Below the pieces are notes generated by a model. The model was not told the origin of the DNA, ran no database searches, and saw nothing but the letters and a program-made list of their open reading frames with translations. The position numbers and the translations under genes were made by a program. A DNA stretch of 64,000 bases from a virus, in IMG/VR virus record IMGVR_UViG_3300045119_000205, positions 1-64,000 of that record; one strand, given 5' to 3'. The stretch's first letter is position 1, and each line of letters begins with the position of its first letter. Positions 35,206 through 62,877 of this stretch are shown in pieces.

Positions 35206-35713
35206 ACCGTTCCCACTCGTTCATGCGCTGCGCGTCAGGGTTGGCACGCCCGAGGATGTTGATGGCGTGATGGCCATGGCGCTGAAGGCATCAGCCGAGA
35301 ACAGCTTCGTGCAGCCATTGCCCGAGCGCCTGCTGGAGGAGATCTATCCGCCGCTATGCCTGGATCGTGGCATTGTCGGTATCATTGGCGGCATCGATGA
35401 TCCTTATCAGGGCGCTATCGTTCTGCGCATTGGTAAGATGTGGTACAGTAATGAAGATGTGCTAGAGGAAAAGGCGGTGTTCGTGGACCCGGTGTATCGC
35501 GCCGCCAAGGGCGGAAGGGCGCGCCTGTTCTGCGAGTTCGCCAAGCGCGCGGCACTGGAAATGAACCTGCCACTGCTGATCGGCGTGCTGTCCAACGACC
35601 GCACCGAGGCGAAGGTACGTCTATACGAGCGCCAGTTCGGCAAGCCCGCCGGGGCGTTTTTTCTCTGGAACGCCATGACGGCGTCGGCCAAGGCGGCACA
35701 AAATGGGCGGTAA
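35198..35713 (+). CDS. GNAT-family acetyltransferase
   Basis: A 171-aa protein from GTG, overlapping the previous gene by 8 bp. The motif EEKAVFVDPVYRAAKGGRAR, then LFCEFAKRAALEMNLPLLIG, gives the GNAT strand, acetyl-CoA-binding turn and helix. It lies immediately before the large internal virion protein gene, a common phage location. Substrate unknown; host or virion protein acetylation is possible. Confidence 0.7.
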   Translation: MIEPFPLVHALRVRVGTPEDVDGVMAMALKASAENSFVQPLPERLLEEIYPPLCLDRGIVGIIGGIDDPYQGAIVLRIGKMWYSNEDVLEEKAVFVDPVYRAAKGGRARLFCEFAKRAALEMNLPLLIGVLSNDRTEAKVRLYERQFGKPAGAFFLWNAMTASAKAAQNGR

Positions 35714-49602: not shown

Positions 49603-49844
49603 CAGCGTCGGTCGCCGTCACGCTGGGCGCGCAAGACCGTCCAGATCAGGATGGCGTCCAGCACGTTGTTGCCGCGCAGTGTGGGGATGGTGGCCAGGAA
49701 GCCTGCGATATCACCCGTGACCGATCCATCGGCCTGGAGCGAGACGGTGATGCCCTGGAGCGTGACGTGCAGGGGGAACATCAGCGGTTCTCCATTACCG
49801 GCGGGCAAGCCGTCCTGGGTGATCGTGTTGTCGGTATTGCTCAT
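49602..49844 (-). CDS. Small unknown protein
   Basis: An 80-aa protein with a strand-rich centre (FPLHVTLQGITVSLQADGSV) and a C-terminal helix (NVLDAILIWTVLRAQRDG). ATGA overlap upstream and TGATG overlap downstream tie it into the minus-strand operon. No recognisable family. Confidence 0.5.
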   Translation of the reverse strand: MSNTDNTITQDGLPAGNGEPLMFPLHVTLQGITVSLQADGSVTGDIAGFLATIPTLRGNNVLDAILIWTVLRAQRDGDRR

Positions 49845-50062
49845 GACGGGTCGTTCTCTCCATTAAGCAGCAACCGGGAAACATGCAGGTAGCTCAGGAC
49901 GTGCAGCGGCGGCACGCGGCTGCCATCGATCCAGCGGCGCACCGTGCGGGGGTTGCAGTGTACCAGGGCGGCCAATTGCCCGGTCGTCCACCCCAGCGCC
50001 GCCAGCGCCTCGCGAACCTCGCAAGCGCTGGCGATCTGCGGATCTGGCGGGGTATTGGTCAC
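49841..50062 (-). CDS. Small helix-turn-helix DNA-binding protein 1
   Basis: A 73-aa protein from GTG. Residues ~17-48, LAALGWTTGQLAALVHCNPR then TVRRWIDGSRVP, are a Cro/CI-type helix-turn-helix with the W.DG.R end seen in small phage and plasmid regulators. It is a candidate reader of the TGTTGAC-N5-GTCAGCA operators, along with the related protein at 51814. That link is untested. Confidence 0.65.
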   Translation of the reverse strand: MTNTPPDPQIASACEVREALAALGWTTGQLAALVHCNPRTVRRWIDGSRVPPLHVLSYLHVSRLLLNGENDPS

Positions 50063-50849: not shown

Positions 50850-51743
50850 TCAATCGACATCCGGCAGATCCAGGGTGTGCGGCCATTCGAACGGCGGCAG
50901 TTTCCGGTTGCCCTTGATCCACACGTTCCAGGCCAGGGTGACGTAGGCCGCCTCTTTGAAGGCCCGGTCCTGAATGATCTTGGGACCGTTAATGCACATC
51001 CAGTTGCGCAATTTCAGGATCAGCGCGCCTTCCTGCATGCCGCCGCCGTGCGACAGGTGATCCCAGAAATCCGGCAGTTTCTGGAGGTGTTTGGTGTGCT
51101 TCTCGATCCAGTAATAGGCCAGCACCCCGGCCGAGCGGGTGATCACCCGGTGATGGTAGATGCGGTCGCCCGCCTTCAGGGCGGTGTCGATGTTCTCGTT
51201 GGCCATCGCCTTCACCTTGGCGATCACCAGCACCGAGGGGTGCGAGCGGGTGCGCAGTTCGGCGCGCAGCATGTGGCGGGCCAGCGAGGTGCGGGTGTTG
51301 GCGTGGTTATAGCCGTGGGTGCTCACGGAATCGGCGGGGGTCCTGATCTTGGGCACGTCGATGACTTCGAACTCTTCCGGCTCGCAGCCAAACCAACAGG
51401 TCATCGCCACCGGGATACCGGCCTGGATGATGGCGAGAAGGCGGTGCTGGCCATTGATCAGCACCCCGTCATAGGAGAACCCGATGGCCTCAATTGACAG
51501 CCGCCATTTGCCGTCGGTGATGAGGTCGCGGTAGCGGTCTACAGTCAGGGACTGCACGGGACGGTTATGGGTGTTCAGCCCGAGGATGAGCAGCGCCATT
51601 TCGGGGGTGATCACGGCGATGTCGGAGAACCGGTTGTCCACGCCGAGTTCCAGGCAGGCCTGGAGCCACGCGGGGTCGGCTATCTGGTAAACCGGCTTGA
51701 TGCGGGGTGCGACGGCCCCTATGTTCGCGGTGTCTTTCGGCAT
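50850..51743 (-). CDS. ParB-like (sulfiredoxin/ParB N-domain) protein
   Basis: A 297-aa protein; ATG 51743 has AAGGACC upstream (an in-frame ATG at 51824 would overlap the neighbour). Residues ~60-115, RPVQSLTVDRYRDLITDGKW, then YDGVLINGQHRLLAIIQAGI, are the ParB/sulfiredoxin-like nuclease domain with NGQHRL in place of the GERR of partition ParB. The C-terminal ~180 residues are helical with no obvious helix-turn-helix, so it is not a canonical parS binder. Related phage proteins are common and mostly uncharacterised. Confidence 0.7.
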   Translation of the reverse strand: MPKDTANIGAVAPRIKPVYQIADPAWLQACLELGVDNRFSDIAVITPEMALLILGLNTHNRPVQSLTVDRYRDLITDGKWRLSIEAIGFSYDGVLINGQHRLLAIIQAGIPVAMTCWFGCEPEEFEVIDVPKIRTPADSVSTHGYNHANTRTSLARHMLRAELRTRSHPSVLVIAKVKAMANENIDTALKAGDRIYHHRVITRSAGVLAYYWIEKHTKHLQKLPDFWDHLSHGGGMQEGALILKLRNWMCINGPKIIQDRAFKEAAYVTLAWNVWIKGNRKLPPFEWPHTLDLPDVD

Positions 51744-51813
51744 CGGTTGGTCCTTGTGCTGGGGGAGACAGGCGCCCGGCGGTAGCGATGCCGCCGGGTG
51801 TTCCTTTTTGGGG

Positions 51814-52020
51814 TCATACATCACAGAGTTCCCGCTCTGGCGGTTCGACCAGGGCGCCCCGCAAGCGGGCGCGTATCCAGTCCTCTATCGGCTCAGGCAC
51901 CCTGGCGGTGCCATCCAGCCAGCGCGCGACCCCCTGGCGCTTGTAGCCGCAGGCGCGGGCCAGGATGGCGGGGGTCCAGTGCAGCATGTCGATTGCGTTG
52001 CGCAGTTCCTTGGGGGTCAT
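51814..52020 (-). CDS. Small helix-turn-helix DNA-binding protein 2
   Basis: A 68-aa protein. Residues ~5-42, ELRNAIDMLHWTPAILARAC, then GYKRQGVARWLDGTARVP, form a helix-turn-helix like that of the protein at 49841, with RWLDG matching RWIDG. The two are likely distant paralogues. Placed third in the operon after the operator-bearing minus promoter, it is a plausible autoregulator. Confidence 0.65.
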   Translation of the reverse strand: MTPKELRNAIDMLHWTPAILARACGYKRQGVARWLDGTARVPEPIEDWIRARLRGALVEPPERELCDV

Positions 52021-52472: not shown

Positions 52473-52503
52473 AAGGTAGGGACCTGCGGACAAACCGTCA
52501 ACT
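52473..52503 (-). promoter_or_regulatory. Early promoter P1 (minus) with operator variant
   Basis: On the minus strand: -35 TTGACG, 17-bp spacer, -10 TACCTT. The operator variant AGTTGAC-GGTTT-GTCCGCA covers the -35 and spacer. It drives the minus-strand operon from 52442 and faces P2, so one regulator could govern both. Confidence 0.65.
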
Positions 52504-52540
52504 GCTTTGCAAAATTATTTTCAGATCCGCCCCGGCAGCC

Positions 52541-52571
52541 TGTTGACAGACTGTCAGCAGACGCATATGTG
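52541..52571 (+). promoter_or_regulatory. Early promoter P2 with TGTTGAC-N5-GTCAGCA operator
   Basis: -35 TTGACA at 52543, 17-bp spacer, -10 TATGTG at 52566. The inverted repeat TGTTGAC-AGACT-GTCAGCA overlaps the -35. A leader with a GGGCG/CGCCC hairpin and CACAAGGACC precedes the ATG at 52610. Confidence 0.75.
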
Positions 52572-52609
52572 GGGCGCGGGCAATCACGCCCAGCACAAGG
52601 ACCGATCCC

Positions 52610-52852
52610 ATGACTTTCGCTGAGATGACCGCATTGCTTGCGGTTCACGGCGCCCGCGCGGTGCCGATGTTCCACCCCGACACGGCGGCCCCCGCCGGGT
52701 TCATGCTGCACGGCCCGCGCGGCAACAAGAAGTGCGTCTTCGTCACCGACGCGGGCTGGGTTGACGGCTTTAGCGTCAAGCTCTGGTGCGACGGCATAGC
52801 GTATGGCGACAAGCGCGCGGCCGAGAAGCGCGCCAAGCAGGTGCGGTCATGA
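52610..52852 (+). CDS. Small early protein, unknown
   Basis: An 80-aa protein (MTFAEMTALLAVHGARAVPM; GNKKCVFVTDAGWVDGFSVK; basic helix RAAEKRAKQVRS). First gene of the P2 operon, with AAGGACC before the ATG. The stop overlaps the next start. Unknown function; the N-terminus resembles that of the protein at 61671 (MTYAEFKAL). Confidence 0.52.
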   Translation: MTFAEMTALLAVHGARAVPMFHPDTAAPAGFMLHGPRGNKKCVFVTDAGWVDGFSVKLWCDGIAYGDKRAAEKRAKQVRS

Positions 52853-53046
52853 GGGTCACCAACCTTGAAGACCGGTGGAACGCGCGCCGCAGGCCGGTCG
52901 CGCTCACCAATAATGACCGCAGGTTCGGCGCCGACCGGCTGCGCTACGAGGCGCACCTCGCTTACCTCAACGGCCGCGCCGCGCGTGCCAAGGAACTGAA
53001 CCGCAAGGCCGATCTGCTCGACCGCGAAACCCGGAAGGGGAACTGA
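52849..53046 (+). CDS. Small basic early protein, unknown
   Basis: A 65-aa Arg-rich protein (NARRRPVALTNNDRRFGADR; helical AYLNGRAARAKELNRKADLL), ATGA-coupled to the previous gene. Likely nucleic-acid binding by charge alone; no family recognised. Confidence 0.5.
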   Translation: MRVTNLEDRWNARRRPVALTNNDRRFGADRLRYEAHLAYLNGRAARAKELNRKADLLDRETRKGN

Positions 53047-53048
53047 CC

Positions 53049-53300
53049 GTGAAGCTCACCAAGCTCGACATGGCGCGGGTGATCGTCACCGCGCTCTACA
53101 ATCGCCCGGCGCTGGTGCCCGAGACGAACCCGGAAGCCATACGCCGCGCCCAGAAGGGCACGGTCGCCAGCCTCGCCAAGCAGCACGCTCTGGCGCTCGC
53201 CGCCATCGCGTCGGCCCGGCCCTATGAACCCACACAGGCCGACATCGACGCCTACATCGCGCGTCTTGCCGCGCAAGACCTCGCAGAAGGGATTGAATAG
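53049..53300 (+). CDS. Small helical early protein, unknown
   Basis: An 83-aa protein from GTG, 2 bp after the previous stop. Helical throughout (LDMARVIVTALYNRPALVPE; ADIDAYIARLAAQDLAEGIE). No recognisable motif. Confidence 0.48.
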   Translation: MKLTKLDMARVIVTALYNRPALVPETNPEAIRRAQKGTVASLAKQHALALAAIASARPYEPTQADIDAYIARLAAQDLAEGIE

Positions 53301-53302
53301 CC

Positions 53303-53560
53303 ATGAACGATCTCAACGCCCGCGAGGAGCTTCTCGCCGCTGCCGGGGGGCTGGCGTTCCAGCACGAGGATCTCAGCTTTGGCCTGAAGAATGCCGAGGA
53401 CGGCATCAAGCTGTGGCGCGCCTGGACGAAAGACGAGAACCTGCCCGAGTTCTGCGATGAGGCCGACAGCGAGGACGAGGCGACCGAGTTCCTCGCCATC
53501 GTCAAGAAGGTGCTGGGCTACAACCCCTGGCAGCGCGCGCATTCGCCAGGGGTGAAGTGA
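53303..53560 (+). CDS. Small acidic early protein, unknown
   Basis: An 85-aa acidic protein (GLKNAEDGIKLWRAWTKDEN; CDEADSEDEATEFLAIVKKV). Starts 2 bp after the previous stop and is TGATG-coupled to the next. Acidity and small size would suit a DNA mimic or protein-binding inhibitor; that is speculative. Confidence 0.5.
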   Translation: MNDLNAREELLAAAGGLAFQHEDLSFGLKNAEDGIKLWRAWTKDENLPEFCDEADSEDEATEFLAIVKKVLGYNPWQRAHSPGVK

Positions 53561-53817
53561 TGATCCGCGTCAAGGTGAAAGGCAGCACGGCGCAAGGGAT
53601 ACGCGATTACGACGTGGCTCTGGCCGAGAACGGGGCGCACATTGTGCGCACCGTCACCAAGCGCAAATCGCTGCAATACGGTTTCGCCTACGCCCCCGGC
53701 CACGAATACAGCTACCGCACCATCAAGCCGCACAGTGCCATCTGGCGCCGTGCGGTGCGGGCCGCGTGGCTGCTGATGATGGACGAGGGCAAGTTCTCTG
53801 TGGGGAATTGGCCATGA
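53560..53817 (+). CDS. Small basic beta protein, unknown
   Basis: An 85-aa protein (RVKVKGSTAQGIRDYDVALA; GHEYSYRTIKPHSAIWRRAV). ATG overlaps the upstream TGA; a GTG lies 3 bases earlier. Basic pI and strands suggest nucleic-acid contact, but no family is recognised. Coupled by ATGA to the following gene. Confidence 0.48.
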   Translation: MIRVKVKGSTAQGIRDYDVALAENGAHIVRTVTKRKSLQYGFAYAPGHEYSYRTIKPHSAIWRRAVRAAWLLMMDEGKFSVGNWP

Positions 53818-54047
53818 GCCGCGCGCCTGTGCGTTTCAGGGCGAGGTACATTCGGGTGAATCCCAGCCTGGGGAAGGCGTCCAGCGAAATGCATATCTAC
53901 ATCACCGGCTTGCCCGAGATCGCCACGGCCGACGCAGAGATCAGGCGTGGCGGGAATATCGCGCGGCTGATCGAAGCGACCCTGAACTGCGCGTTCGTCG
54001 CGTTCGCCAAGCCGAGAAAAGTGGAAAAATCCTCAACTTCCTGTTGA
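53814..54047 (+). CDS. Small early protein, unknown
   Basis: A 77-aa protein, ATGA-coupled. It reads RFRARYIRVNPSLGKASSEM and EIATADAEIRRGGNIARLIE. Its last codons run into the P3 operator (54042), so the coding end and the regulatory site share bases. Unknown function. Confidence 0.48.
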   Translation: MSRAPVRFRARYIRVNPSLGKASSEMHIYITGLPEIATADAEIRRGGNIARLIEATLNCAFVAFAKPRKVEKSSTSC

Positions 54048-54072
54048 CGGGTGGTCAGCAAGACCTTACTTA
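54042..54072 (+). promoter_or_regulatory. Early promoter P3 (helicase) with operator
   Basis: -35 TTGACG at 54044, 17-bp spacer, -10 TACTTA at 54067. Operator TGTTGAC-GGGTG-GTCAGCA. Leader GGGCAATCGCGCCC, then AGATAAGGATCG before the ATG at 54118. Same architecture as P2. Confidence 0.75.
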
Positions 54073-54117
54073 GGGGGCAGGGCAATCGCGCCCACCCCTG
54101 AGATAAGGATCGACCCC

Positions 54118-55662
54118 ATGGCCTTCACTCCCTCCATCCAGCAGGCAGTATTCCTCGACTGGATCTCCAACGGCACCGGCTCCTGCGTTCTGGAAGCGGT
54201 CGCTGGCGCGGGCAAGACCACCACCCTGATCGAAGCGATCTCCCGCACGGGCGGCGGCGTGGCCTTCCTGGCCTACAACAAGAAAATTGCCGACGAGATC
54301 AAGGGCAAGCTGGCGCAGCGCGGGATCGACTGGAAGACCGCCGATGCCGGTACCATCCACTCTTTCGGTTTCCGCGCCTACCGCAAGGCTTTCCCCGACG
54401 TGAAGGTGGACGGCAACAAGCTGGCCGATTTGGCCGCCGTGCTGCTCAACAACGACAAGCACCCGCTGATCGCCCCTCTGGTGAAGCTGGTATCGCTGGC
54501 CAAGCAGCGCGCTCTGGGCGTGCTGGGCAGCATCGATGACAAGAGCCTGTGGTTCGACATCATCTCGCACTTCGACGTGCTGGCCAGCGAAGATCTGGAC
54601 GACGACGCCACCGAGCGCTTCGTGGACGCGGGCATCGCCCTGCTGCGCTCCAGCAACAGCGTCACCGACATCGTGGACTTCGATGACATGGTGTACCTGC
54701 CGCTGGTGAAGAAGGTTCGCTTCTGGCGCAACAAGTGGGTTTTCGTGGACGAGGCGCAGGACACCAACCCGGCCCGCCGCGCCCTGGTTCGCGCCCTGCT
54801 GGCCCCCGGCGGCCGCGTCGTCGCGGTCGGTGACCGTCACCAAGCCATCTACGGTTTCACTGGCGCCGACAGCGACAGCCTGGATCTGATCGCGCAGGAT
54901 TTCGACTGCTGCCGCCTGCCGCTGACCACCACCTACCGCTGCCCCCAGGCCATCGTGGCGTTCGCCCAGCAGTGGGTGAGCCATATCGAAGCGCACGAGA
55001 GCGCGCCGCTTGGGTCCGTCACCAGCCTGCCCCTGTCGGCTCTGCTGGGGCGCAACGACCTCAATGGCGACAGCGCCATCCTGTGCCGCAACACCAAGCC
55101 GCTCGTGGAACTCGCGTTCAAGCTCATCCGCGCCAAGGTGGCGTGCAAGGTAGAGGGTCGCGACATCGGCCTGGGCCTGATCAAGCTGGCCACCAAGTGG
55201 AAGAACGCCGTCACCCTGCACGGCCTGGAAGTGAAGCTGGCCGACTGGTCGAACCGCGAGATCACCAAGGCGCTGGCGAAGAAGAACGAAACCCGCGCGC
55301 AGTCGGTGGAGGATCAGGTCGCGACCCTTCAGGTGATCATCGATCAGTGCCGCGCCGAGCGCCGCGACAGCGTCGCCGCCGTGGTGGACGCCATCAACGA
55401 GATCTTCGCCAACGACGTGTCGGGGATCTTGGTGCTCTCCACCATCCACAAGTCCAAGGGCCGCGAGTGGAACACGGTGTTCTGGTTGGACCGCGCCGGT
55501 ACCTGCCCCAGCAAATACGCCCGTCAGGCGTGGCAGCAGGAGCAGGAAATCAACCTGCAATACGTCGCCGCCACCCGCGCCAAGAGGTCCCTCGTGGACC
55601 TCTACGCGGCGCCTGAAGGCGGCCAGGAGTTCGCCCGCGAGAACGAGGAGGCGGGGATCTGA
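54118..55662 (+). CDS. SF1 DNA helicase, UvrD/Rep-like
   Basis: A 514-aa protein. Walker A AGAGKTTT (29-36), motif Ia AYNKKIADEI, Walker B VFVDEAQDTNP (D211-E212), motif III VGDRHQAIYGFTGAD, motif IV TTYRCPQ and motifs V/VI STIHKSKGREW and YVAATRAKRSL are all present. It is shorter than cellular UvrD (~720 aa), lacking most accessory 2B sequence. It unwinds DNA 3'-5' in this family and probably serves phage replication or recombination. Sole gene behind P3. Confidence 0.87.
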   Translation: MAFTPSIQQAVFLDWISNGTGSCVLEAVAGAGKTTTLIEAISRTGGGVAFLAYNKKIADEIKGKLAQRGIDWKTADAGTIHSFGFRAYRKAFPDVKVDGNKLADLAAVLLNNDKHPLIAPLVKLVSLAKQRALGVLGSIDDKSLWFDIISHFDVLASEDLDDDATERFVDAGIALLRSSNSVTDIVDFDDMVYLPLVKKVRFWRNKWVFVDEAQDTNPARRALVRALLAPGGRVVAVGDRHQAIYGFTGADSDSLDLIAQDFDCCRLPLTTTYRCPQAIVAFAQQWVSHIEAHESAPLGSVTSLPLSALLGRNDLNGDSAILCRNTKPLVELAFKLIRAKVACKVEGRDIGLGLIKLATKWKNAVTLHGLEVKLADWSNREITKALAKKNETRAQSVEDQVATLQVIIDQCRAERRDSVAAVVDAINEIFANDVSGILVLSTIHKSKGREWNTVFWLDRAGTCPSKYARQAWQQEQEINLQYVAATRAKRSLVDLYAAPEGGQEFARENEEAGI

Positions 55663-55679
55663 ACCCTGTCAATGGGGGC

Positions 55680-55706
55680 CTGGGGGGGCACATTTCTGTC
55701 CCCCAG
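55680..55706 (+). terminator. Possible terminator after the helicase gene
   Basis: CTGGGGG pairs with CCCCCAG around a 13-nt loop, 17 bp after the helicase stop. A T-rich run is absent (TGTTCTCC follows), so termination may be partial. Confidence 0.45.
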
Positions 55707-55750
55707 TGTTCTCCTGATGTTCCCGGAACAAAGCGAAAGCGGCGTTTAAT

Positions 55751-55917
55751 CCGCGATTATCCGACCGAGTTTCGGTCAAACCCGCGAAATCCGCGAAATT
55801 CGCCGCGAAAACGCGCAAATACGCCGCCAAATTAGCGCGGCGGGTTTCTTTCGGCAGATTTCCGCCGTTTTAAATCCGCCAAAACCGCTTGGTCTAACCG
55901 CGCGTAATTTCGCGGAG
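55751..55917. repeat. Helically phased CCGCGAAAT-like repeats in a gene-free region
   Basis: The 277-bp gap before P4 has no gene. It contains CCGCGATTAT, CCGCGAAAT, CCGCGAAATT, GCCGCGAAAA, ACGCGCAAAT and CGCCGCCAAATT, several of them 9-11 bp apart (55782-55832), and a reversed copy TAATTTCGCGG at about 55905. The region is AT-richer than its surroundings. Regular helical spacing suggests bending or cooperative protein binding. Confidence 0.5.
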
Positions 55918-55939
55918 GTTTCGGGATTGACATCGTGCC

Positions 55940-55970
55940 TGTTGACAGCCTGTCAGCAAACCCCTACACA
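55940..55970 (+). promoter_or_regulatory. Early promoter P4 with operator
   Basis: -35 TTGACA at 55942, 17-bp spacer, -10 TACACA at 55965. Operator TGTTGAC-AGCCT-GTCAGCA. A leader hairpin GCCAGGGC/GCCCGGC (55977-55997) precedes the ATG at 56018. Confidence 0.72.
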
Positions 55971-56017
55971 AGCCTTGCCAGGGCGCTCCTGCCCGGCACG
56001 CAATGAGGATCTCTCCC

Positions 56018-56368
56018 ATGGCCATCGTCACCCACCTCGACACCACCGGCTACGCCCCCGTCGATGAGCGCTGGTGCGCTTACAACGACGTGACCTTCGA
56101 AGGCCCCGGCAGCCTGATCGGCAAGGGCGCCACCGAGGACGCGGCCATCGCGGATCTGGAACAGCAGGAGGAGGACGCGGACGAGGCGGCCGCCCTGGCC
56201 GCTGACGCCGCCTGCGACGTGTGCAACGGAACCGGCTGGCTCACGGTGCGCAGCACCTTCCCGTGCGCCTATGTCTGCGCGGGCGAGCCGCCCGAGGACG
56301 CCAAGGGCGTGACCGGCTGGCCCTGCTCCGACTGCCACAGCTTCCACCGCGCGAAGGGCCGGTCTTAA
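56018..56368 (+). CDS. Small acidic Cys-pair protein, unknown
   Basis: A 116-aa protein; ATG 56018 (GAGGATCTCTCCC upstream) is preferred over ATG 56003. C66/C69 (CDVCNGTGW) and C103/C106 (CSDCHSF) could bind zinc, and CxxCxGxG is DnaJ-like. The middle is acidic helix (LEQQEEDADEAAALAADAA). Single gene behind P4; unknown role. Confidence 0.55.
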   Translation: MAIVTHLDTTGYAPVDERWCAYNDVTFEGPGSLIGKGATEDAAIADLEQQEEDADEAAALAADAACDVCNGTGWLTVRSTFPCAYVCAGEPPEDAKGVTGWPCSDCHSFHRAKGRS

Positions 56369-56397
56369 AATAAAAATTCACTTTTCTTCGTCGTCCC

Positions 56398-56428
56398 TGT
56401 TGACCAGCGGTCAGCAGGGGCTTATCTC
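56398..56428 (+). promoter_or_regulatory. Early promoter P5 with operator
   Basis: -35 TTGACC at 56400, 17-bp spacer, -10 TATCTC at 56423. Operator TGTTGAC-CAGCG-GTCAGCA. Its inner arms TGACC/GGTCA pair perfectly, although the other sites use TGACA/TGTCA, which is a covarying change. Leader hairpin GCCGAGGGC/GCCCCGGC at 56436-56457. Confidence 0.75.
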
Positions 56429-56478
56429 TCTTCTTGCCGAGGGCATCCCGCCCCGGCGTCAAAACGGGAAACCGGATC

Positions 56479-56751
56479 ATGAGCCTCTCCAACACCTCTC
56501 CCCTCGTCGCCGCCTACATCGCCGCCAAGGCCGCCGAGGAAGTCGCTGCTGCCGCCGTGAAGGCCGCCCGCGACGCCATCGTCGCCACCGGCCTGGACCT
56601 GATCCAGGGCGAGCACGCCGACATCGTCGTCAGCCTCACCGAGCGCGTCGCGGTCGATACCGCCGCCTGCAAGAAGCTCCTGGGCGACGCCACCCCCACC
56701 AAATCCTCCGACGTGACCACCCTGCGCATCAAGGTGAAGGTCGCGGCGTAA
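56479..56751 (+). CDS. Small Ala-rich early protein, unknown
   Basis: A 90-aa protein. N-terminal helix of alanines (YIAAKAAEEVAAAAVKAARD) and a strand-rich end (HADIVVSLTERVAVDTAACK; TTLRIKVKVAA). First gene behind P5. No family recognised. Confidence 0.52.
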   Translation: MSLSNTSPLVAAYIAAKAAEEVAAAAVKAARDAIVATGLDLIQGEHADIVVSLTERVAVDTAACKKLLGDATPTKSSDVTTLRIKVKVAA

Positions 56752-56758
56752 GCCTACG

Positions 56759-56777
56759 GGCGCCCCGGTGGGGCGCC
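56759..56777 (+). other. Intercistronic hairpin, 8-bp stem, 3-nt loop
   Basis: GGCGCCCC-GGT-GGGGCGCC lies 7 bp after a stop codon. It is followed by a second leader-type hairpin (56786-56807), then CATCAAGGACC and the next ATG. No T-tract. One of several such hairpins in this region. Confidence 0.6.
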
Positions 56778-56827
56778 TACCCCCTGCCGAGGGCGTTCCG
56801 CCCCGGCGAGCATCAAGGACCCCTGCC

Positions 56828-57109
56828 ATGAACTCCGTTCTTCACCTCACCCCGATCTCCCCCTACTGCCCCCACCGCGTGGACGTGGACGGCGATGTCG
56901 AGTTTGGCGAGGTCGCGCTGCACGACCTCGTCTCCGAGGAGGATCTCCCCGGCCTGCGCACCGTGCTGGTGTATTCGGCCGCCGAGGCGCTGCTGATCGG
57001 GCGGGCGCTGGTCGCCGCCGCCGAGGCGGTGCTGAAGGCCAAGCGCAACGCGGCGGACGAGGCCAGCCTCGACGCCGACGCGGCGTTCCTCGTGGCGCTG
57101 GGCGCATGA
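56828..57109 (+). CDS. Small early protein, unknown
   Basis: A 93-aa acidic protein (YCPHRVDVDGDVEFGEVALH; helix AEALLIGRALVAAAEAVLKA), AAGGACC site upstream. The stop overlaps the next start (ATGA). No recognisable family. Confidence 0.5.
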   Translation: MNSVLHLTPISPYCPHRVDVDGDVEFGEVALHDLVSEEDLPGLRTVLVYSAAEALLIGRALVAAAEAVLKAKRNAADEASLDADAAFLVALGA

Positions 57110-57438
57110 GCGCGTCCCCCCGGAGCGCCCCCCGCCAGGGTGGGCGCCTGCGGTCGTCAGGGGCGCTCCACGAGCGCCTCGACAGCGTCACCCGCGTGCT
57201 CGATCACTACCGTGCCGTGCTGGCCTGGGAGCTTCAGGAATTGCTGGAGCTACAGGCCAGCGGACCCTCGCCCCGGCACGCCGCCAAGTGGGGGCACGCG
57301 CGGGCCTGGGAGATCCGCTGCAACACCATCAGCCGTCGTGAGGGCGACATCTCCACGATCCGCCAGCGCATCGAGGCCATCGAGATCCAGCAGCACACGC
57401 TGGTGATCGCCACCAACGAAATCGAGGGAGGGGCCTGA
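57106..57438 (+). CDS. Small helical coiled-coil protein, unknown
   Basis: A 110-aa protein. Basic disordered N-terminus, then long helices (RVLDHYRAVLAWELQELLEL; GDISTIRQRIEAIEIQQHTL). ATGA start and TGATG-coupled downstream gene. Unknown role. Confidence 0.5.
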   Translation: MSASPRSAPRQGGRLRSSGALHERLDSVTRVLDHYRAVLAWELQELLELQASGPSPRHAAKWGHARAWEIRCNTISRREGDISTIRQRIEAIEIQQHTLVIATNEIEGGA

Positions 57439-57629
57439 TGACCCTCTCCGCGCTGGTCAATGCGGGCGTCATCGGCCTGCTGGTGGCCTATGTTTCCGCC
57501 GTGTTCATCCCGCCCCGCTACGTCACCCTGGCCACGTTCCTGCTGATCTGGAGCTTGGTGTCGCTGTGCCTGTACCGGGTCGGTCTGGGCGCCATGTTCG
57601 ACGCCCTGGCGGGCGAAGGGGGACCGTGA
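57438..57629 (+). CDS. Small two-helix membrane protein
   Basis: A 63-aa protein with membrane segments at ~7-25 (NAGVIGLLVAYVSAVFI) and ~30-48 (LATFLLIWSLVSLCLY). TGATG overlaps on both sides. It sits among early genes, so it may alter the host envelope or block superinfection, rather than lysis; unproven. Confidence 0.52.
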   Translation: MTLSALVNAGVIGLLVAYVSAVFIPPRYVTLATFLLIWSLVSLCLYRVGLGAMFDALAGEGGP

Positions 57630-57931
57630 TGGCACCGCATGCCGACATGATTTTCCGGGTGACCGGCGGCGCCGTCGAGGCCGAGAACATCTGGTCCTGC
57701 GGGCAGCGCGTGCCCCCCGGCGAGGAGTTCTGGGACGAGGAGTATTGCCAGTGGTTCCAGTGGGCCGACACCAGCGGCGAGTTCGCCGCGTGCCACGAGG
57801 GCTGGTACTTTCAGTGGCGCTGCCGCATCGATGATTATGACATCCTGGGCGAGCCTATCGGTCCCCTGCACGGTCCCTACGCCACCCGTGGCGAGGCCGA
57901 GAGCGCGCTGCAAGCCAAGGGGGTGGTGTGA
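57629..57931 (+). CDS. Small Trp-rich acidic protein, unknown
   Basis: A 100-aa protein rich in Trp, Glu and Asp (EEFWDEEYCQWFQWADTSGE; EGWYFQWRCRIDDYDILGEP) with three cysteines. TGATG overlaps on both sides. The composition would suit a protein-binding inhibitor; no family recognised. Confidence 0.5.
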   Translation: MAPHADMIFRVTGGAVEAENIWSCGQRVPPGEEFWDEEYCQWFQWADTSGEFAACHEGWYFQWRCRIDDYDILGEPIGPLHGPYATRGEAESALQAKGVV

Positions 57932-58134
57932 TGCTGCACCTGATCGCCTTCGGCATTGGCGTGGTGTTCTTCATCACCTGCGGGCTGTGCGCGGTCTACC
58001 TCGTGCTGGAGGCGATCATCCCGCCGCTGTATCGCGTCCTCGCTCCGGTGTTCAACGCACTCCAGGGGTTCATGGCGTTGGCCATCCTCATCCTGATCTT
58101 CTGGCACTTGGTCTGGACGAGGTGGTACCCGTAG
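57931..58134 (+). CDS. Small two-helix membrane protein
   Basis: A 67-aa protein (LIAFGIGVVFFITCGLCAVY; FMALAILILIFWHLVW). ATG overlaps the upstream TGA. Last gene of the P5 transcript before a hairpin. Second early membrane protein in the same operon. Confidence 0.5.
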   Translation: MLHLIAFGIGVVFFITCGLCAVYLVLEAIIPPLYRVLAPVFNALQGFMALAILILIFWHLVWTRWYP

Positions 58135-58232
58135 CGCCTGCCAATCGTCACGAGACACCAGGGATGGTGTGATCACGAGGCGGCTTGCCACCGTCACAGA
58201 ACCGTCGCAGGCTTGCTGCCTTCAACGGGGAA

Positions 58233-58257
58233 GGGCCGGGTTTCGCAGACCCGGCCC
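58233..58257 (+). terminator. Stem-loop between the early operon and the replication gene
   Basis: GGGCCGGGT-TTCGCAG-ACCCGGCCC, a 9-bp perfect stem. CCTATCC follows instead of a T-run, so it may be a weak terminator or a leader structure of the replication gene. Confidence 0.5.
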
Positions 58258-58298
58258 CCTATCCGCACCGACTACGACGAGGAACACCGTCGCAATGG

Positions 58299-58307
58299 TT
58301 ATCCACA
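58299..58307 (+). promoter_or_regulatory. DnaA-box match upstream of the replication gene
   Basis: TTATCCACA is an exact match to the strict bacterial DnaA box. One exact copy could occur by chance in a window this size, but this one lies 28 bp before the likely start of the replication protein. Confidence 0.4.
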
Positions 58308-58326
58308 GATTAGTACCGGCCACGCT

Positions 58327-60552
58327 ATGGCGCAACCAGCGTCACTGCGGCGTGACATGGTTGTCATGAACGGCGCGGACGAGAGCCATGGTTTCGATGA
58401 GCCTGTGGCGCCCGCGCCACTGCCCATCGATCTCCCCAGCATCGCTGAGGCCACGCTGACCCGCGAGAGGCTGTGGGACGCGGGGTTCAGGCCGGTGGCG
58501 GTGCGCAACCCCGTCAGGGGCGACGAGAAGAGCGGCAAGGCGCCGCTGGGCAATGGCTGGAGAGCTTCAGCGCTGCAAGATCCCCCGTTCGTGGCGACAT
58601 GCCCTGCGGTCGCTCACGCGTTGAATACGGGGATACTTTGTGACGGACTGCGCGCCGTCGATATCGACGTGGACAACGTCGTGATGGCGTCACAGGTGCA
58701 TGGCGCTGCGGTGCATACGCTGGGCGAAGCGCCCGCGCGCTACCGCGCCACCGGACCCCGCGTGCTGCTGTTGTACCGCGCCGCCGAGGGCGCACCCGGC
58801 AAGGTCGTGCTGCCCACCCCCAACGGCAAAGTGGAGGTGCTGGGCGCGGGCCAGCAGTTCGTGGCATTCGGCGCGCATCATACCGGGGCGGAACTGAACT
58901 GGCATCCCGAGGCGCCCGGCGACATCGCGGCCAGCGGCCTGACCATGGTCACCGAGGAACAGGTACATGCGTTCCTCGTGGAGGCGGCGGTGATCCTGGG
59001 CGCGGCGGCCGTGCCCGCCGCGCGCAAGGCTACCCGTTTACCTAAGCAGCCCGCGCCCGCGTCTAAGGTCAACGGGGGCGGTCTGGCCGCCGCCCTGGCC
59101 GACACCATCAGCGATGGCCGCGAGGAGTACATGCTGCGCTGGATCTGGGGGCGCGTGCTGGACTGGTACCGCGCCTGCCCGATCCCGCCGACTAATGTGG
59201 AAAGCGAGAGCGCCTGCGCCGACGCGTTCCTCGCCTGGGTCGAGCACGTGGACAGCCGCATTCCAGGGGCGCACGCGGCCAAGGCCGAGCGGCTTGAACA
59301 GGAAGGGCGCGGGTGGTCGGAGTTCCAGCGCAAGTGGCACTACGCCATGGCGCAGTGGGACGCCAAGGTCGCGGACGAGGCGGGCAAGCCCAGGCCGCAG
59401 CAGGCGCCACCACCACCTCCTGCGGACGGTGCGGACGATGAGGACGATTGGGGACCCTCGCCATCTGGCAATCCCTACCCCGGCACGAAGGCGCCAGGGC
59501 CGCGCCCGCTGCTTACCGCCGCCGAGTTCGCGGCGACGTTCCAGCGGCCGGATTACATCGTGGACGGTATCATCCAGCGCGGCAGGCTGATCGCGCTCAC
59601 CAGCGCCACCGGACATGGCAAGACCGCCGTCGCGTTATGCCTGGGAATGCATATCGCCACCGGGCGCAACCTGGGGTCCCTGGAGGTCGAGCCGGGCGAA
59701 GTGATCTTCCTGGCGGGCGAGAACCCGGACGATCTGTGCGGCCGCTTCCATGCGGCGGCGAAGCACTACGGGGTGCCGTTCGATCAGATGCATATCAGCG
59801 TGATGCCGGGAAACTTTCCTATGGCGCCGGGTGATGCGAGCGCGCTGCGGCAGCAGATCGATGACAGGCCAGCCATAGCCAGTCTAACGCCCAGGCCGTT
59901 GTCGCTGATCGTAGTGGACACCAGCGCGGCATATTTCCCTGGCGAGGACGAGAACCACAACGTGCAGATGGGCAGTTGGGCCAGGACGCTGCGCACGCTG
60001 ACGCAGTGCCGGGGCAACCCGGCCGTGCTGGTGCTGTGCCATCCGACCAAGAACGCCAGCCGCGAGAGCCTGCTGCCGCGCGGTGGCGGGGCGTTCATGG
60101 CCGAGATCGACGCCAACCTCACGCTGTGGTCGGAGGCGCAGGGCGAGAGCACGCGGCTGCATTGGGGTGGCAAGATCCGGGGTGCCGATTTCTCGCCGGT
60201 CAGCTTCGCGCTGGTGCAGGTGAAGCTGACCGAGCTTTGCGATCACAAGGGGCGCCCGTTCGTCAGCATCGTGGCCACGCTACAGAGCGATGCCGAGGCT
60301 GACCGGGTCGATGCGGCTGCTGTGTCGGACGAGAACACGGTGCTGGTGTGGCTGCACCGCTACCCCGGCATCAACCTGCGCGACATCGCCATGAACGCCG
60401 GGTGGACGAACGAGCAGGGCCAGCCGCTGCTGGGAAAGGTGCAGCGGTTGCTCAAGACGCTAGGGCAGGAAAAGCTCGCCAAGGTTCATCGCAAGAAGTG
60501 GATGATCACGCCGCAGGGCATGAACGAGATCGGCGTCAGCGATGACCCGTGA
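58327..60552 (+). CDS. Primase-polymerase / RepA-like helicase replication protein
   Basis: About 741 aa; the start is uncertain (frame open from 58213; other ATGs at 58357 and 58366; no strong ribosome site). N-terminal primase-polymerase signs: GLRAVDIDVDN with the acidic pair, ATGPRVLLLYRA, and EVLGAGQQFVAFGAHHTGA. Then a RepA/AAA_25 ATPase: Walker A SATGHGKTAVAL (~425-436), Walker B LIVVDTSAAYF (~527-537) and HPTKNASRESLLPRGGGAF. The end (INLRDIAMNAGWTNEQ) looks like a winged helix. It combines primer synthesis and unwinding, as in plasmid-like replicons. Iterons follow directly. Confidence 0.8.
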   Translation: MAQPASLRRDMVVMNGADESHGFDEPVAPAPLPIDLPSIAEATLTRERLWDAGFRPVAVRNPVRGDEKSGKAPLGNGWRASALQDPPFVATCPAVAHALNTGILCDGLRAVDIDVDNVVMASQVHGAAVHTLGEAPARYRATGPRVLLLYRAAEGAPGKVVLPTPNGKVEVLGAGQQFVAFGAHHTGAELNWHPEAPGDIAASGLTMVTEEQVHAFLVEAAVILGAAAVPAARKATRLPKQPAPASKVNGGGLAAALADTISDGREEYMLRWIWGRVLDWYRACPIPPTNVESESACADAFLAWVEHVDSRIPGAHAAKAERLEQEGRGWSEFQRKWHYAMAQWDAKVADEAGKPRPQQAPPPPPADGADDEDDWGPSPSGNPYPGTKAPGPRPLLTAAEFAATFQRPDYIVDGIIQRGRLIALTSATGHGKTAVALCLGMHIATGRNLGSLEVEPGEVIFLAGENPDDLCGRFHAAAKHYGVPFDQMHISVMPGNFPMAPGDASALRQQIDDRPAIASLTPRPLSLIVVDTSAAYFPGEDENHNVQMGSWARTLRTLTQCRGNPAVLVLCHPTKNASRESLLPRGGGAFMAEIDANLTLWSEAQGESTRLHWGGKIRGADFSPVSFALVQVKLTELCDHKGRPFVSIVATLQSDAEADRVDAAAVSDENTVLVWLHRYPGINLRDIAMNAGWTNEQGQPLLGKVQRLLKTLGQEKLAKVHRKKWMITPQGMNEIGVSDDP

Positions 60553-60582
60553 TCAAAGCGTGAACAAATTCAGGATCATTCC

Positions 60583-60787
60583 TGTATCGGAGCGCGATAC
60601 AGCGGGGGGGTCCTGTATCGCGATACGATACAGCGATACGGTGCGATACTGTCATGAAAAAAACGACCATCAAACCCCCGGAAATCTGCGGCTGTATCGC
60701 GATACAGACTTTCGATACAGCCCCCAAGGGAAGCCGCCTTGTATCGGCTTCCTATTCTTGGGGGTCCCCACGCGATACAGCGATACG
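60583..60787. repeat. Iteron cluster, candidate replication origin
   Basis: TGTATCG or its complement CGATACA occurs nine times exactly (60583, 60595, 60614, 60626, 60693, 60700, 60713, 60740, 60773) and four more times with one change (60621, 60634, 60644, 60781) in 205 bp. Some are fused head-to-head into TGTATCGCGATACA. An A-rich stretch (ATGAAAAAAACGACC) lies between the two halves. Position right after the primase-helicase gene fits an iteron origin bound by that protein. The short frames across it look like by-products of the repeats. Confidence 0.72.
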
Positions 60788-60816
60788 CCGACCAACCCCG
60801 CACAAGGACCGCCGAC

Positions 60817-61359
60817 ATGACCGACAACAACCCCTCCTGGCTGCACGACCACCTCGCTGGCCGCGCCATCCTCGACGGCCTGGATCACCGCGCCCATGAG
60901 CTTGAGATGGCGTGGGGGATCGGGCGCCTGCGCCTGCTGGTGGCCGAGGATCTGCGCCTGCGCTTCGACCGCCAGGGCGAGAAGCTCGACCACGCGGTGC
61001 GCGACGGCAGCCTGGATGAACTGCGCCATGAGGCGAAGCGCATGCTGGCGGGCTGGAACGCGCTGAACACGGCGGCCCTGGAAGCTGGGCATAAACACCT
61101 GTCACCGGACGTGTGGGAGGTGATCAGCCCCGATGGCGAGGTGATCGCCATCACCCGCACCACCCCCGAGGCAGCCCTGCACAGCCGCCAGAACCGCGCC
61201 ATGGCGGTCTACAGCCTGGAGGAGGTCGGCAGGCTGCTGGGGCACTACAGCGCCACTGTGGGGCTGCTGAAGACCACATGGCCGGGCGCCATGGTCACCG
61301 CCGCCGACCGCAGCACCCTGTCGGCCAAGCTGGGCCGCGCGGATGATATCCCGTTCTAA
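60817..61359 (+). CDS. Protein next to the iterons, unknown
   Basis: A 180-aa mostly helical protein after CACAAGGACC. It reads HLAGRAILDGLDHRAHELEM, then AGHKHLSPDVWEVISPDG and VYSLEEVGRLLGHYSATVGL. No catalytic motif is seen. Its place directly behind the iteron cluster suggests a replication accessory role, but that is context only. Confidence 0.55.
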   Translation: MTDNNPSWLHDHLAGRAILDGLDHRAHELEMAWGIGRLRLLVAEDLRLRFDRQGEKLDHAVRDGSLDELRHEAKRMLAGWNALNTAALEAGHKHLSPDVWEVISPDGEVIAITRTTPEAALHSRQNRAMAVYSLEEVGRLLGHYSATVGLLKTTWPGAMVTAADRSTLSAKLGRADDIPF

Positions 61360-61384
61360 AACCGCTGTGGATGCCCGTAGGACG

Positions 61385-61404
61385 GCGCCAGGGCGCCCTG
61401 GCGC
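61385..61404. other. Perfect 20-bp palindrome
   Basis: GCGCCAGGGC followed by its exact complement GCCCTGGCGC, 25 bp after a stop codon, inside a larger GGATGC/GCATCC inverted repeat. As RNA it would form a stem without a proper loop; as DNA it is a possible dimer-binding or recombination site. No T-tract. Confidence 0.5.
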
Positions 61405-61515
61405 ATCCACGCACCCCCCAGGAGCCAAAACCCGCCTGCGGGCATCCTGGGGCATTCTGCGGGGTGATGGTCAGGAAGGCCAGCAATAGGTCAGCAATCG
61501 ATTATTGGCCCGCCT

Positions 61516-61588
61516 CGCGCGCGCACGCGCCCTGGCCACGCGCGCACGCGCGCCCCCTGGCCGCGCACACGCGCACGTGATGCGCGCG
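61516..61588. other. Alternating CG/CA tracts (Z-DNA-prone) in a gene-free region
   Basis: The 311-bp gap 61360-61670 has no gene. It contains three strictly alternating purine-pyrimidine tracts of 15-17 bp (61516-61530, 61537-61553, 61562-61578), separated by CCTGGCC-like spacers. They lie just upstream of P6. Confidence 0.5.
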
Positions 61589-61601
61589 AGGCCAGCGGGT
61601 C

Positions 61602-61632
61602 TGTTGACAGTTTGTCAGCAGGCTCGTATCTA
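61602..61632 (+). promoter_or_regulatory. Early promoter P6 with operator
   Basis: -35 TTGACA at 61604, 17-bp spacer, -10 TATCTA at 61627. Operator TGTTGAC-AGTTT-GTCAGCA. Leader CGGCA/TGCCG hairpin, then GAAAGGACC and ATG 61671. Its 19-bp operator is identical to that of P7. Confidence 0.8.
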
Positions 61633-61670
61633 CGGGGCACCGGCACGGTATGCCGCGAAAGGACCAGACC

Positions 61671-61832
61671 ATGACCTACGCTGAATTTAAGGCCCTGGAA
61701 GACGCGCTGGAGGCGGCCTACCGCTCGCTGCTCTGCAATGTCGATCCTCGCCACGAGCGCGAACTGCACGCGGCCTACATCGCCGCCAGCGACGCCTACG
61801 ACATCGCCTGCGACGAGTTCCAAGAAGCCTGA
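61671..61832 (+). CDS. Small helical early protein, unknown
   Basis: A 53-aa protein (MTYAEFKALEDALEAAYRSL ... ASDAYDIACDEFQEA). ATG 61671 has AAAGGACC upstream. Looks like a two-helix hairpin; unknown function. Confidence 0.55.
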   Translation: MTYAEFKALEDALEAAYRSLLCNVDPRHERELHAAYIAASDAYDIACDEFQEA

Positions 61833-61843
61833 TCACTAACAAC

Positions 61844-61863
61844 GCGGGGGCACAGGCCCCCGC
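61844..61863 (+). other. Intercistronic hairpin, 8-bp stem, 4-nt loop
   Basis: GCGGGGGC-ACAG-GCCCCCGC lies 11 bp after the previous stop and is followed by CAATCAAGGACC and the next ATG. Same design as those at 56759, 62884 and 63428. Confidence 0.6.
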
Positions 61864-61886
61864 CCCCAATCAAGGACCATTTTCCT

Positions 61887-62021
61887 ATGTATATCTGGGT
61901 CGATATCGAAGATCTCACCAAGCTCGCCAAGCTCTGCGCGCAGTTCGTGCGCGAGGGGCTGACGTTCGAAGTCAGCGAAAAAGGGCACCGCTGGCTCATC
62001 GAACTCACCGGAGGTTTCTGA
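61887..62021 (+). CDS. Very small early protein, unknown
   Basis: A 44-aa protein (MYIWVDIEDLTKLAKLCAQF, then VREGLTFEVSEKGHRWLIEL). CAAGGACC precedes the ATG and the next ATG follows by 2 bp. Compact alpha/beta pattern; no family assigned. Confidence 0.5.
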   Translation: MYIWVDIEDLTKLAKLCAQFVREGLTFEVSEKGHRWLIELTGGF

Positions 62022-62023
62022 CC

Positions 62024-62236
62024 ATGGACGGATACGCCATCACCATCGCCTGGATCGAAGGCGCCAACCACGTCAAGGTCGTGCAGCTTGACTACGCGCA
62101 AGGCGAGGAGAACCTCGCCCGCGCCGCCTACCGCGCCGCCTGCGCCAACCCCAACGCCATCTCCGCGACCCTGGAAGGGCCGGGCGGCATCATCCTGGCG
62201 GAATACGAAGCGGCGCAAACCGCGCTGGAGGTCTGA
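62024..62236 (+). CDS. Small early protein, unknown
   Basis: A 70-aa alpha/beta protein (MDGYAITIAWIEGANHVKVV; AAYRAACANPNAISATLEGP), with GGAGG before the ATG. Probably co-translated with its neighbours; function unknown. Confidence 0.5.
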   Translation: MDGYAITIAWIEGANHVKVVQLDYAQGEENLARAAYRAACANPNAISATLEGPGGIILAEYEAAQTALEV

Positions 62237-62239
62237 GCC

Positions 62240-62428
62240 ATGGAGCCGATCTACCGCATCGAGAAACTCACTCTGACCCATCACCACGCGGTCTATCGCG
62301 TGGTCAGTGGAAAGGGGCGCCTCTACCAGCAATGGGGCACATTCCACACCCGCGAGGAGGCCGAGGCATGCGCCCGCGAGCGGCTCCTGAACGAGGTGCT
62401 GGCGGGGAGGGATCACAGCGACGAATAG
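62240..62428 (+). CDS. Small early protein, unknown
   Basis: A 62-aa protein (IYRIEKLTLTHHHAVYRVVS; TFHTREEAEACARERLLNEV). Strand-strand-helix pattern resembling short phage proteins of the WGTFxTxEEA type. GGAGG at 62229. Last gene of the P6 transcript. Confidence 0.52.
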   Translation: MEPIYRIEKLTLTHHHAVYRVVSGKGRLYQQWGTFHTREEAEACARERLLNEVLAGRDHSDE

Positions 62429-62459
62429 CGTAACGTCACGCGCCTGTGACCTGGGGGTC

Positions 62460-62490
62460 TGTTGACAGTTTGTCAGCAGGCCCTTATCTA
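62460..62490 (+). promoter_or_regulatory. Early promoter P7 with operator
   Basis: -35 TTGACA at 62462, 17-bp spacer, -10 TATCTA at 62485. Operator TGTTGAC-AGTTT-GTCAGCA, identical to that of P6. CGCGAAAGGACC precedes the GTG at 62530. Confidence 0.8.
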
Positions 62491-62529
62491 CGTCGTCACC
62501 GGCACCCCCGCCGCGAAAGGACCAAGCTC

Positions 62530-62877
62530 GTGATCTCCACCAACCTCATCGCCCGCCGCGTCGCCCCAGGCGTCCCCGTGTGGAACCTGATTGCCGACCG
62601 CGCCGAAATCGGCATCCTCTCCAACCTGCCCCGCGAAAAGGCCGCCTGCATCACCGCAAACTACCACGGCCAGCGCCTCGATTTCCGCGCCTCCTCCACC
62701 GAGGTCGTGCTCGCCGCCCTGCGCTGCGCCATCGACGCACTCGACTACATCGCGGCCGAGGAAGCCGCCCACGAAGACATCGAGGACGAGGACGGCGAGA
62801 TCGCCCGCATCCGTCACGAAGAGAACCTCAACGACGCCTGGGCGCAACGTCACGCTCACGAAGACCCCTGGTACTGA
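62530..62877 (+). CDS. Small acidic early protein, unknown
   Basis: A 115-aa protein from GTG (AAAGGACC upstream). N-terminal strands (VWNLIADRAEIGILSNLPRE; YHGQRLDFRASSTEVVLAAL) and a strongly acidic helix (AAEEAAHEDIEDEDGEIARI). Function unknown; no catalytic motif. Confidence 0.55.
   Translation: MISTNLIARRVAPGVPVWNLIADRAEIGILSNLPREKAACITANYHGQRLDFRASSTEVVLAALRCAIDALDYIAAEEAAHEDIEDEDGEIARIRHEENLNDAWAQRHAHEDPWY

Follow-up and report, generated by a model that had tools for sequence, protein, structure and literature searches.

Seven phage promoters with a shared palindrome over the -35 box and a small helix-turn-helix protein as their candidate repressor

Described phage repressor systems and the present locus

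In the cluster A mycobacteriophages one phage repressor acts at many sites in the genome, through a consensus that differs between related phages (PMC6550527), and these sites, the stoperators, are asymmetric and lie mostly away from promoters (PMC6550527, PMC4351075). Here we analyse a 64,000-nucleotide stretch of virus DNA (the window; bases 1-64,000 of the 68,461-bp virus record IMGVR_UViG_3300045119_000205, G+C 64%) in which seven promoters share a palindromic element, TGTTGAC-N5-GTCAGCA or a diverged form of it, placed over the -35 box. Comparison of sequences suggests that these sites are probably the operators of one dimeric, phage-encoded helix-turn-helix (HTH) protein, most likely the product of the gene at 51814-52020 (minus strand), acting as an autoregulated repressor. 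The original prediction had likened the sites to a stoperator network, an analogy that does not hold, as the window sites are palindromic, all stand in promoter register and have no exact copy elsewhere; there are seven of them, at promoters, in a record where no integrase was found, compared to 20-30 stoperators per genome which block elongation in temperate phages.

A nearer parallel may be offered by the Aca proteins, autorepressors whose binding sites are inverted repeats within the core promoter (PMC9410906, PMC8434428). Like the autorepressors Aca2, Aca10 and Aca1, the candidate is a small phage HTH protein of similar predicted fold, it has an inverted repeat in a strong core promoter (over the -35 box of its own operon, at the 52485 site), and a burst of transcription followed by auto-repression is what we propose for it. 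This match in fold is weak evidence of Aca membership, because antitoxins share the fold, and Aca proteins take their definition from an anti-CRISPR (acr) gene in their operon and are known mainly for acting on that operon, whereas here there are seven promoters and the sequence similarity of the 51814 protein is below family level. No anti-CRISPR gene was recognised among the scanned proteins, although acr genes are too diverse to be excluded in this way. In the early regulon with Aca8 of SIRV2-type archaeal rudiviruses, many early operons share a promoter with a flanking regulatory sequence, their shut-down by one small HTH protein has been proposed, and other viruses carry other motifs (PMC11065993), but those promoters are of the archaeal BRE/TATA kind, while here the -35 box itself is one half-site of a palindrome. 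Corndog (cluster O) also has a repeated palindrome, 17 bp long (TGTTCGG-N3-CCGAACA), no integrase and several DNA-binding proteins (PMC4351075), but its palindromes number >30, with a third of them inside genes and most of them off promoters. Compared with these systems, the window sites look like a phage repressor regulon whose closest analogue in its working would be Aca-type autorepression extended over many operons, as proposed for SIRV2; the features that set it apart, and that are worth testing, are the use of the -35 box as a half-site at every promoter, a concerted shift of the operators between phages, and a recurrence of the layout in Nitunavirus.

The seven operator-promoter sites

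Six exact copies of the motif had been predicted on the plus strand and all six are present. The first, TGTTGAC-AGACT-GTCAGCA at 52541-52559 (-35 TTGACA 52543-52548, -10 TATGTG 52566-52571), lies upstream of the gene at 52610-52852 and has a homologous site at G1 62096 (positions prefixed G1 are those of a related phage, G001, which is described below). It is followed by TGTTGAC-GGGTG-GTCAGCA at 54042-54060 (-10 TACTTA 54067-54072; homologous site G1 63150), upstream of a UvrD-type helicase gene and with the TGA stop codon of the preceding gene inside its left arm, and by TGTTGAC-AGCCT-GTCAGCA at 55940-55958 (-10 TACACA 55965-55970; counterpart at G1 64921 weak and its homology doubtful), upstream of the gene at 56018-56368. 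Next come TGTTGAC-CAGCG-GTCAGCA at 56398-56416 (-10 TATCTC 56423-56428; homologous site G1 64976), upstream of the gene at 56479-56751, and TGTTGAC-AGTTT-GTCAGCA at 61602-61620 (-10 TATCTA 61627-61632; homologous site G1 4304), upstream of the gene at 61671-61832. The last, with the same letters, TGTTGAC-AGTTT-GTCAGCA, at 62460-62478 (-10 TATCTA 62485-62490), belongs to a near-duplicate of the 61602 cassette and lies upstream of the gene at 62530-62877, towards the terminase genes. The seventh, diverged site, AGTTGAC-GGTTT-GTCCGCA at 52485-52503 on the minus strand, was found with two mismatches allowed and lies over the -35 box of a leftward promoter (-10 TACCTT 52473-52478, 17-bp spacer; homologous site G1 62039, minus strand); the coordinate 52473 by which it was first reported is the end of its -10 box.

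All seven sites have the sigma-70 promoter features of a -35 TTGACN and a TA-type -10 box 16-18 bp apart, and at each of them (7/7) the -35 is TTGAC, the spacer exactly 17 bp and the -10 of the form TANNNN. There are eight TTGAC-N17-TA matches in the record and the operator is present at seven of these. The remaining match, TTGACA-N17-TA at 50853 (minus strand), overlaps the 3' end of the 50850 gene and is kept in the relative at G1 60407 (minus strand). Operator-less matches with 16 to 18 bp between TTGAC and TA number five, which is close to the background level seen when other distances are used. A scan of the whole record found no further exact site and no match to the reversed pattern used as a control; the six exact sites are all intergenic and near-matches inside genes lack a promoter. 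The commonest gapped palindrome with 7+7 arms has 6 copies in the real genome, compared to a maximum of 2 in 60 dinucleotide shuffles.

Sigma-70 requires no fixed sequence in the spacer between the -35 and -10 boxes. The left arm alone could be conserved as a -35 box, but the right arm lies within the spacer and is fixed in six of the seven copies, and it is because of this that we regard the sites as operators. The same observation makes it very improbable that the repeats are just one promoter cassette spread by duplication, with an incidental palindrome and no regulator: while the 61602 and 62460 cassettes are indeed near-identical from operator to ribosome-binding site, with only one such cassette in the relative, per-column information shows that the N5, the flanks and the -10 box have diverged among the copies with both arms held fixed. 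That the sites serve replication, partition or packaging, in the manner of iterons or parS, and fall at promoters by chance is the least probable of the explanations we considered; the 50850 protein does have homologues annotated as ParB-like, and the Corndog palindromes, mostly off promoters, have no known role (PMC4351075), but all seven sites here are in exact register with a promoter and the record has no match to AAA_31 (ParA).

The two arms mirror each other as inverted repeats at 6 of their 7 positions, and TTGAC and its mirror copy lie about 10 bp, or one helical turn, apart, as expected of sites bound by a dimer. The original prediction had drawn its argument for a dimer from compensating changes at 56398, and this argument is weak: symmetry at positions 8 and 12 is seen at 5 of the 7 window sites, two of which (61602 and 62460) are duplicated cassettes, and is absent at 54042 and 52485; in the relative it is seen at just 3 of the 5 homologous sites. 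The operator has its centre some 16 bp ahead of the -10 box, near -28, so that the element covers the -35 box and half of the spacer, which is a position for a repressor and not for a class I or class II activator. Classical activators bind upstream of the -35 box, and MerR-type activators that act within the spacer work on spacers of 19-20 bp. It is thus unlikely that the bound protein activates or times these promoters instead of repressing them; a site common to non-structural promoters might suit an activator of phage middle promoters, and the final T of the -10 box is missing at six of the seven sites, but with the operator over the -35 box, every spacer at 17 bp and a site on the candidate's own operon, which suits negative feedback, repression is the better fit.

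If the sites are operators of the 51814 protein, host RNA polymerase would fire the strong TTGAC-N17-TA promoters upon phage entry. One product of the leftward operon, which is controlled by the 52485 site, would be the HTH protein, and as it builds up its dimers would occupy both half-sites, spaced by roughly one turn of the helix. With the -35 box in one half-site and spacer sequence in the other, the bound protein would then block polymerase at every one of the seven promoters, its own among them, giving a burst and then a joint shut-down of the non-structural operons. Binding by the 51814 protein, repression and the timing implied by the word 'early' are all putative steps of this scheme.

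Two further features of these promoters were considered. The palindrome might have served as a bidirectional promoter, but on the reverse strand the window sites read CTGAC and have no TA at 17 bp (for example at 52541), and this idea was rejected. Hairpins occur in the leaders after each promoter, with folding z-scores of merely -0.7 to -1.7, and we claim no function for them. Short G+C-rich hairpins of the GGGC...GCCC type lie between promoter and start codon at 52572-52609, 54073-54117, 55971-56017, 56429-56478 and 56780-56828, the 56780 one standing without a promoter, and similar hairpins also follow the helicase promoters of two other phages, G003 and G004.

Related phages and the candidate regulator

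Relatives were found using the UvrD-type helicase (54118-55662, plus strand; Pfam PF00580, E 8e-23), the first gene behind the 54042 promoter, as query. The 62460 site is kept in two close relatives, L016 and L007, with one N5 base different in L007. The more distant relative G001 is the 66,753-bp record behind L025, and its early-region matching blocks are mostly 71-89% identical in nucleotides to the window. Five of the sites recur at syntenic places in G001, bearing out the expectation that the motif should be present at homologous positions. Identity over these five pairs is 97% in the left arm and 66% in the right arm, but 40% in the N5; it is 70% in the -10 box and 75% in the leader. The changes in the right arm are shared among the sites: position 17 is G in the window phage and A in G001 in 5/5 pairs and position 19 is A in the window phage and G in G001 in 4/5 pairs, so that the right arm is mostly GTCAAC(G/A) in G001 compared to GTCAGCA in the window phage. 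Sites that change together point to one recognising protein which has itself changed. The predicted single dimeric regulator over all seven promoters is thus well supported at the sequence level by arms that are conserved between copies and between phages, that have changed in concert, and that are placed where a repressor would be expected.

G001 lacks both an equivalent of the 62460 site and the gene block between 61602 and 62460. In the window this block of small genes is bracketed by the near-identical promoter-leader cassettes at 61602-61671 and 62460-62530 (operator to ribosome-binding site), with one cassette in G001, and small-gene modules seem to move together with their own operator-promoter. 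Scanning viral contigs for the exact window motif gave, besides the close relatives L007 and L016, lone matches in otherwise unrelated contigs at about the level of chance, and a literature search for the motif itself found nothing.

In more distant phages, with helicase identities of 61-67%, the helicase promoter has different palindromes between its -35 and -10 boxes (three copies in G004, two in G003 and one in G002). In G004 (L031) three promoters at 35416, 37088 and 38342 (minus strand) carry TTGAC[C/T]-G[C/T]AGAA[A/G]AAATTTCTGC, a palindrome exactly filling the 17-bp spacer and a different operator set. By inspection a recurrent palindrome of its own at the helicase promoter is seen in G004 and weakly in G003; as a general rule for every helicase relative this was unsupported by a blind test of 38 loci with random-window controls, and the rule was dropped. 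We consider it improbable that a host transcription factor binds the palindrome and that the phage promoters are plugged into a host regulon; the promoters are of the host sigma-70 type and the phage origin of the binding protein is itself a prediction, but the operators shift in concert between two related phages and the helicase promoters of more distant ones carry palindromes of their own, as private phage regulators would lead one to expect, an argument of limited force because the hosts may differ between phages. A repeated element of another kind was seen in L033, a 127-kb virus record, where TTGCTTGAATGCAAA occurs at 1438, 9093, 9927 and other positions, often upstream of genes, and looks like another phage-wide operator.

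Three candidate regulators had been named, two small HTH proteins (49841 and 51814) and a ribbon-helix-helix protein (27867). The last was discarded, having no Pfam match and lying antisense to rightward open reading frames, and the phage comparison singles out the 51814 protein by its changed helix. This 68-amino-acid single-domain HTH protein (51814-52020, minus strand; phrog_4779, E 1.6e-4; AF2 model with pLDDT 91) belongs to the leftward operon that the 52485 site precedes and is 60% identical to its G001 counterpart, compared to 86-91% for the two genes upstream of it. Its recognition helix comprises residues 28-36 in the AlphaFold model, and over this helix and its N-cap the changes to the relative are K27T, G30A, V31A and A32D, with R28, Q29 and R33 kept. 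The predicted model matches Aca2 (Z 9.7), Aca10 (9.1), MqsA (8.4), HigA2 (8.2) and Aca1 (7.4) in structure. The second HTH protein, of 73 amino acids (49841-50062, minus strand; Pfam HTH_23, E 1.8e-6), has the recognition helix NPRTVRRW in both phages and is retained as an alternative only. On the assumption that a change in the operators has to be matched by a change in their regulator, a premise resting on one phage pair, we take the 51814 protein to be the best candidate for the regulator.

Several observations weigh against this choice. The 51814 protein differs from that of the relative over its whole length (25/63 residues) and not just in the recognition helix, it falls below the Pfam gathering cut-offs, its Foldseek E-values are >0.03 and a Z of 9.7 is merely moderate for a small helical domain. 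The co-change of operator and helix is a single correlational event, as the whole regulon was seen in just one divergent relative, and the 324-amino-acid 50850 protein (50850-51824, minus strand; phrog_5931), whose distant homologues are annotated as DNA-binding or ParB-like, evolves equally fast (56% identity to the relative). That the operators are real but are bound by the 49841 or the 50850 protein is accordingly the most serious alternative, though well behind the 51814 protein in likelihood: both genes belong to the same leftward operon, both products are predicted or annotated as DNA-binding, the 49841 protein matches HTH families better than the 51814 protein does and the 50850 protein has diverged as noted, but the 49841 recognition helix is unchanged despite the differing operators, and the 50850 protein, a weaker candidate again, gave neither an HTH match in Pfam nor a model good enough to use (AF2 pLDDT 33). 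A search of named phages for the 51814 protein gave no match.

A parallel layout in Nitunavirus, lifestyle and neighbouring genes

The motif of the relative led to Nitunavirus, a group that includes the Bacillus subtilis phages Grass, phiNIT1 and BSP38 (L133, L139, L141, L146, L152, L159, L162). With one mismatch allowed, GTTGAC-N5-GTCAAYA, placed as in the window and with a spacer of 17 bp, has 20-25 forward-strand copies per Nitunavirus genome compared to 0 for the reversed pattern. Many copies of GTTGAC-N5-GTCAAY over a -35 box are in the terminal-repeat region, and most strong promoters in the first 7.2 kb of Grass carry it; SPO1 lacks this promoter motif. A one-mismatch copy remote from the others immediately precedes the gene Grass_62, whose product is an HTH_3 protein with the annotation of a transcriptional repressor, and we infer that Grass_62 binds the Nitunavirus sites. 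The likeness to the window is an operator on the -35 box, a 17-bp spacer and a repressor gene behind its own copy of the motif; the differences are that these are unrelated virulent Herelleviridae of Firmicutes, that the right arm is GTCAAY and not GTCAGCA, and that the HTH_3 repressor matches the HTH profile just marginally (E 0.01). The two layouts are most likely convergent, with descent not indicated, and convergence would be natural because a dimer using the -35 box as a half-site must yield such a palindrome.

We would tentatively suggest that this is a recurrent, convergent design of virulent phages, in which the -35 box is a half-site of a dimeric repressor palindrome (TTGAC-N5-GTCAA or a variant) and the operators shift together with the recognition helix of a small, autoregulated HTH repressor. 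If so, it arose independently in a phage group of alphaproteobacterial type and in the Bacillus Nitunavirus, a general trick of tying the operator to the -35 box, and each phage lineage would have a private early-shut-off regulon; with the -35 box doubling as half-site, repression would not easily be lost without loss of promoter strength. To our knowledge, early-gene switch-off in virulent phages is known for few systems. The whole switch, with its seven operators, promoters and 68-amino-acid candidate repressor, is defined at the sequence level, which allows it to be reconstructed on a plasmid, and the related phage provides a natural operator/helix variant pair for studying a change of specificity across an entire regulon at once.

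The host is likely to be alphaproteobacterial because the closest protein relatives of both helicase (Bradyrhizobium, Dinoroseobacter and Brevundimonas) and terminase (Roseobacter, Paracoccus and Rhizobium) include those of Alphaproteobacteria phages. Phage_integrase and Resolvase (tyrosine and serine integrases) and AAA_31 (ParA) had 0 matches in the window record (G000) and the relatives G001, G003 and G004, records of uncertain completeness, and these records likewise gave no match to an S24-peptidase repressor (PF00717), although repressors without S24 exist. A CI-type immunity repressor of lysogeny is thus not indicated, absence from a possibly incomplete record being no proof, and the findings agree better with a virulent phage that shuts off its early genes.

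A Prim-Pol/AAA primase-helicase (58357-60552, plus strand; Pfam PF09250, PF13481) is encoded in the rightward region that separates the 56398 promoter from the 61602 one. Between this gene and the next one, at 60580-60800, there is a dense repeat array with many copies of CGATACAG / CTGTATCG, which is possibly a replication origin or a set of iterons.

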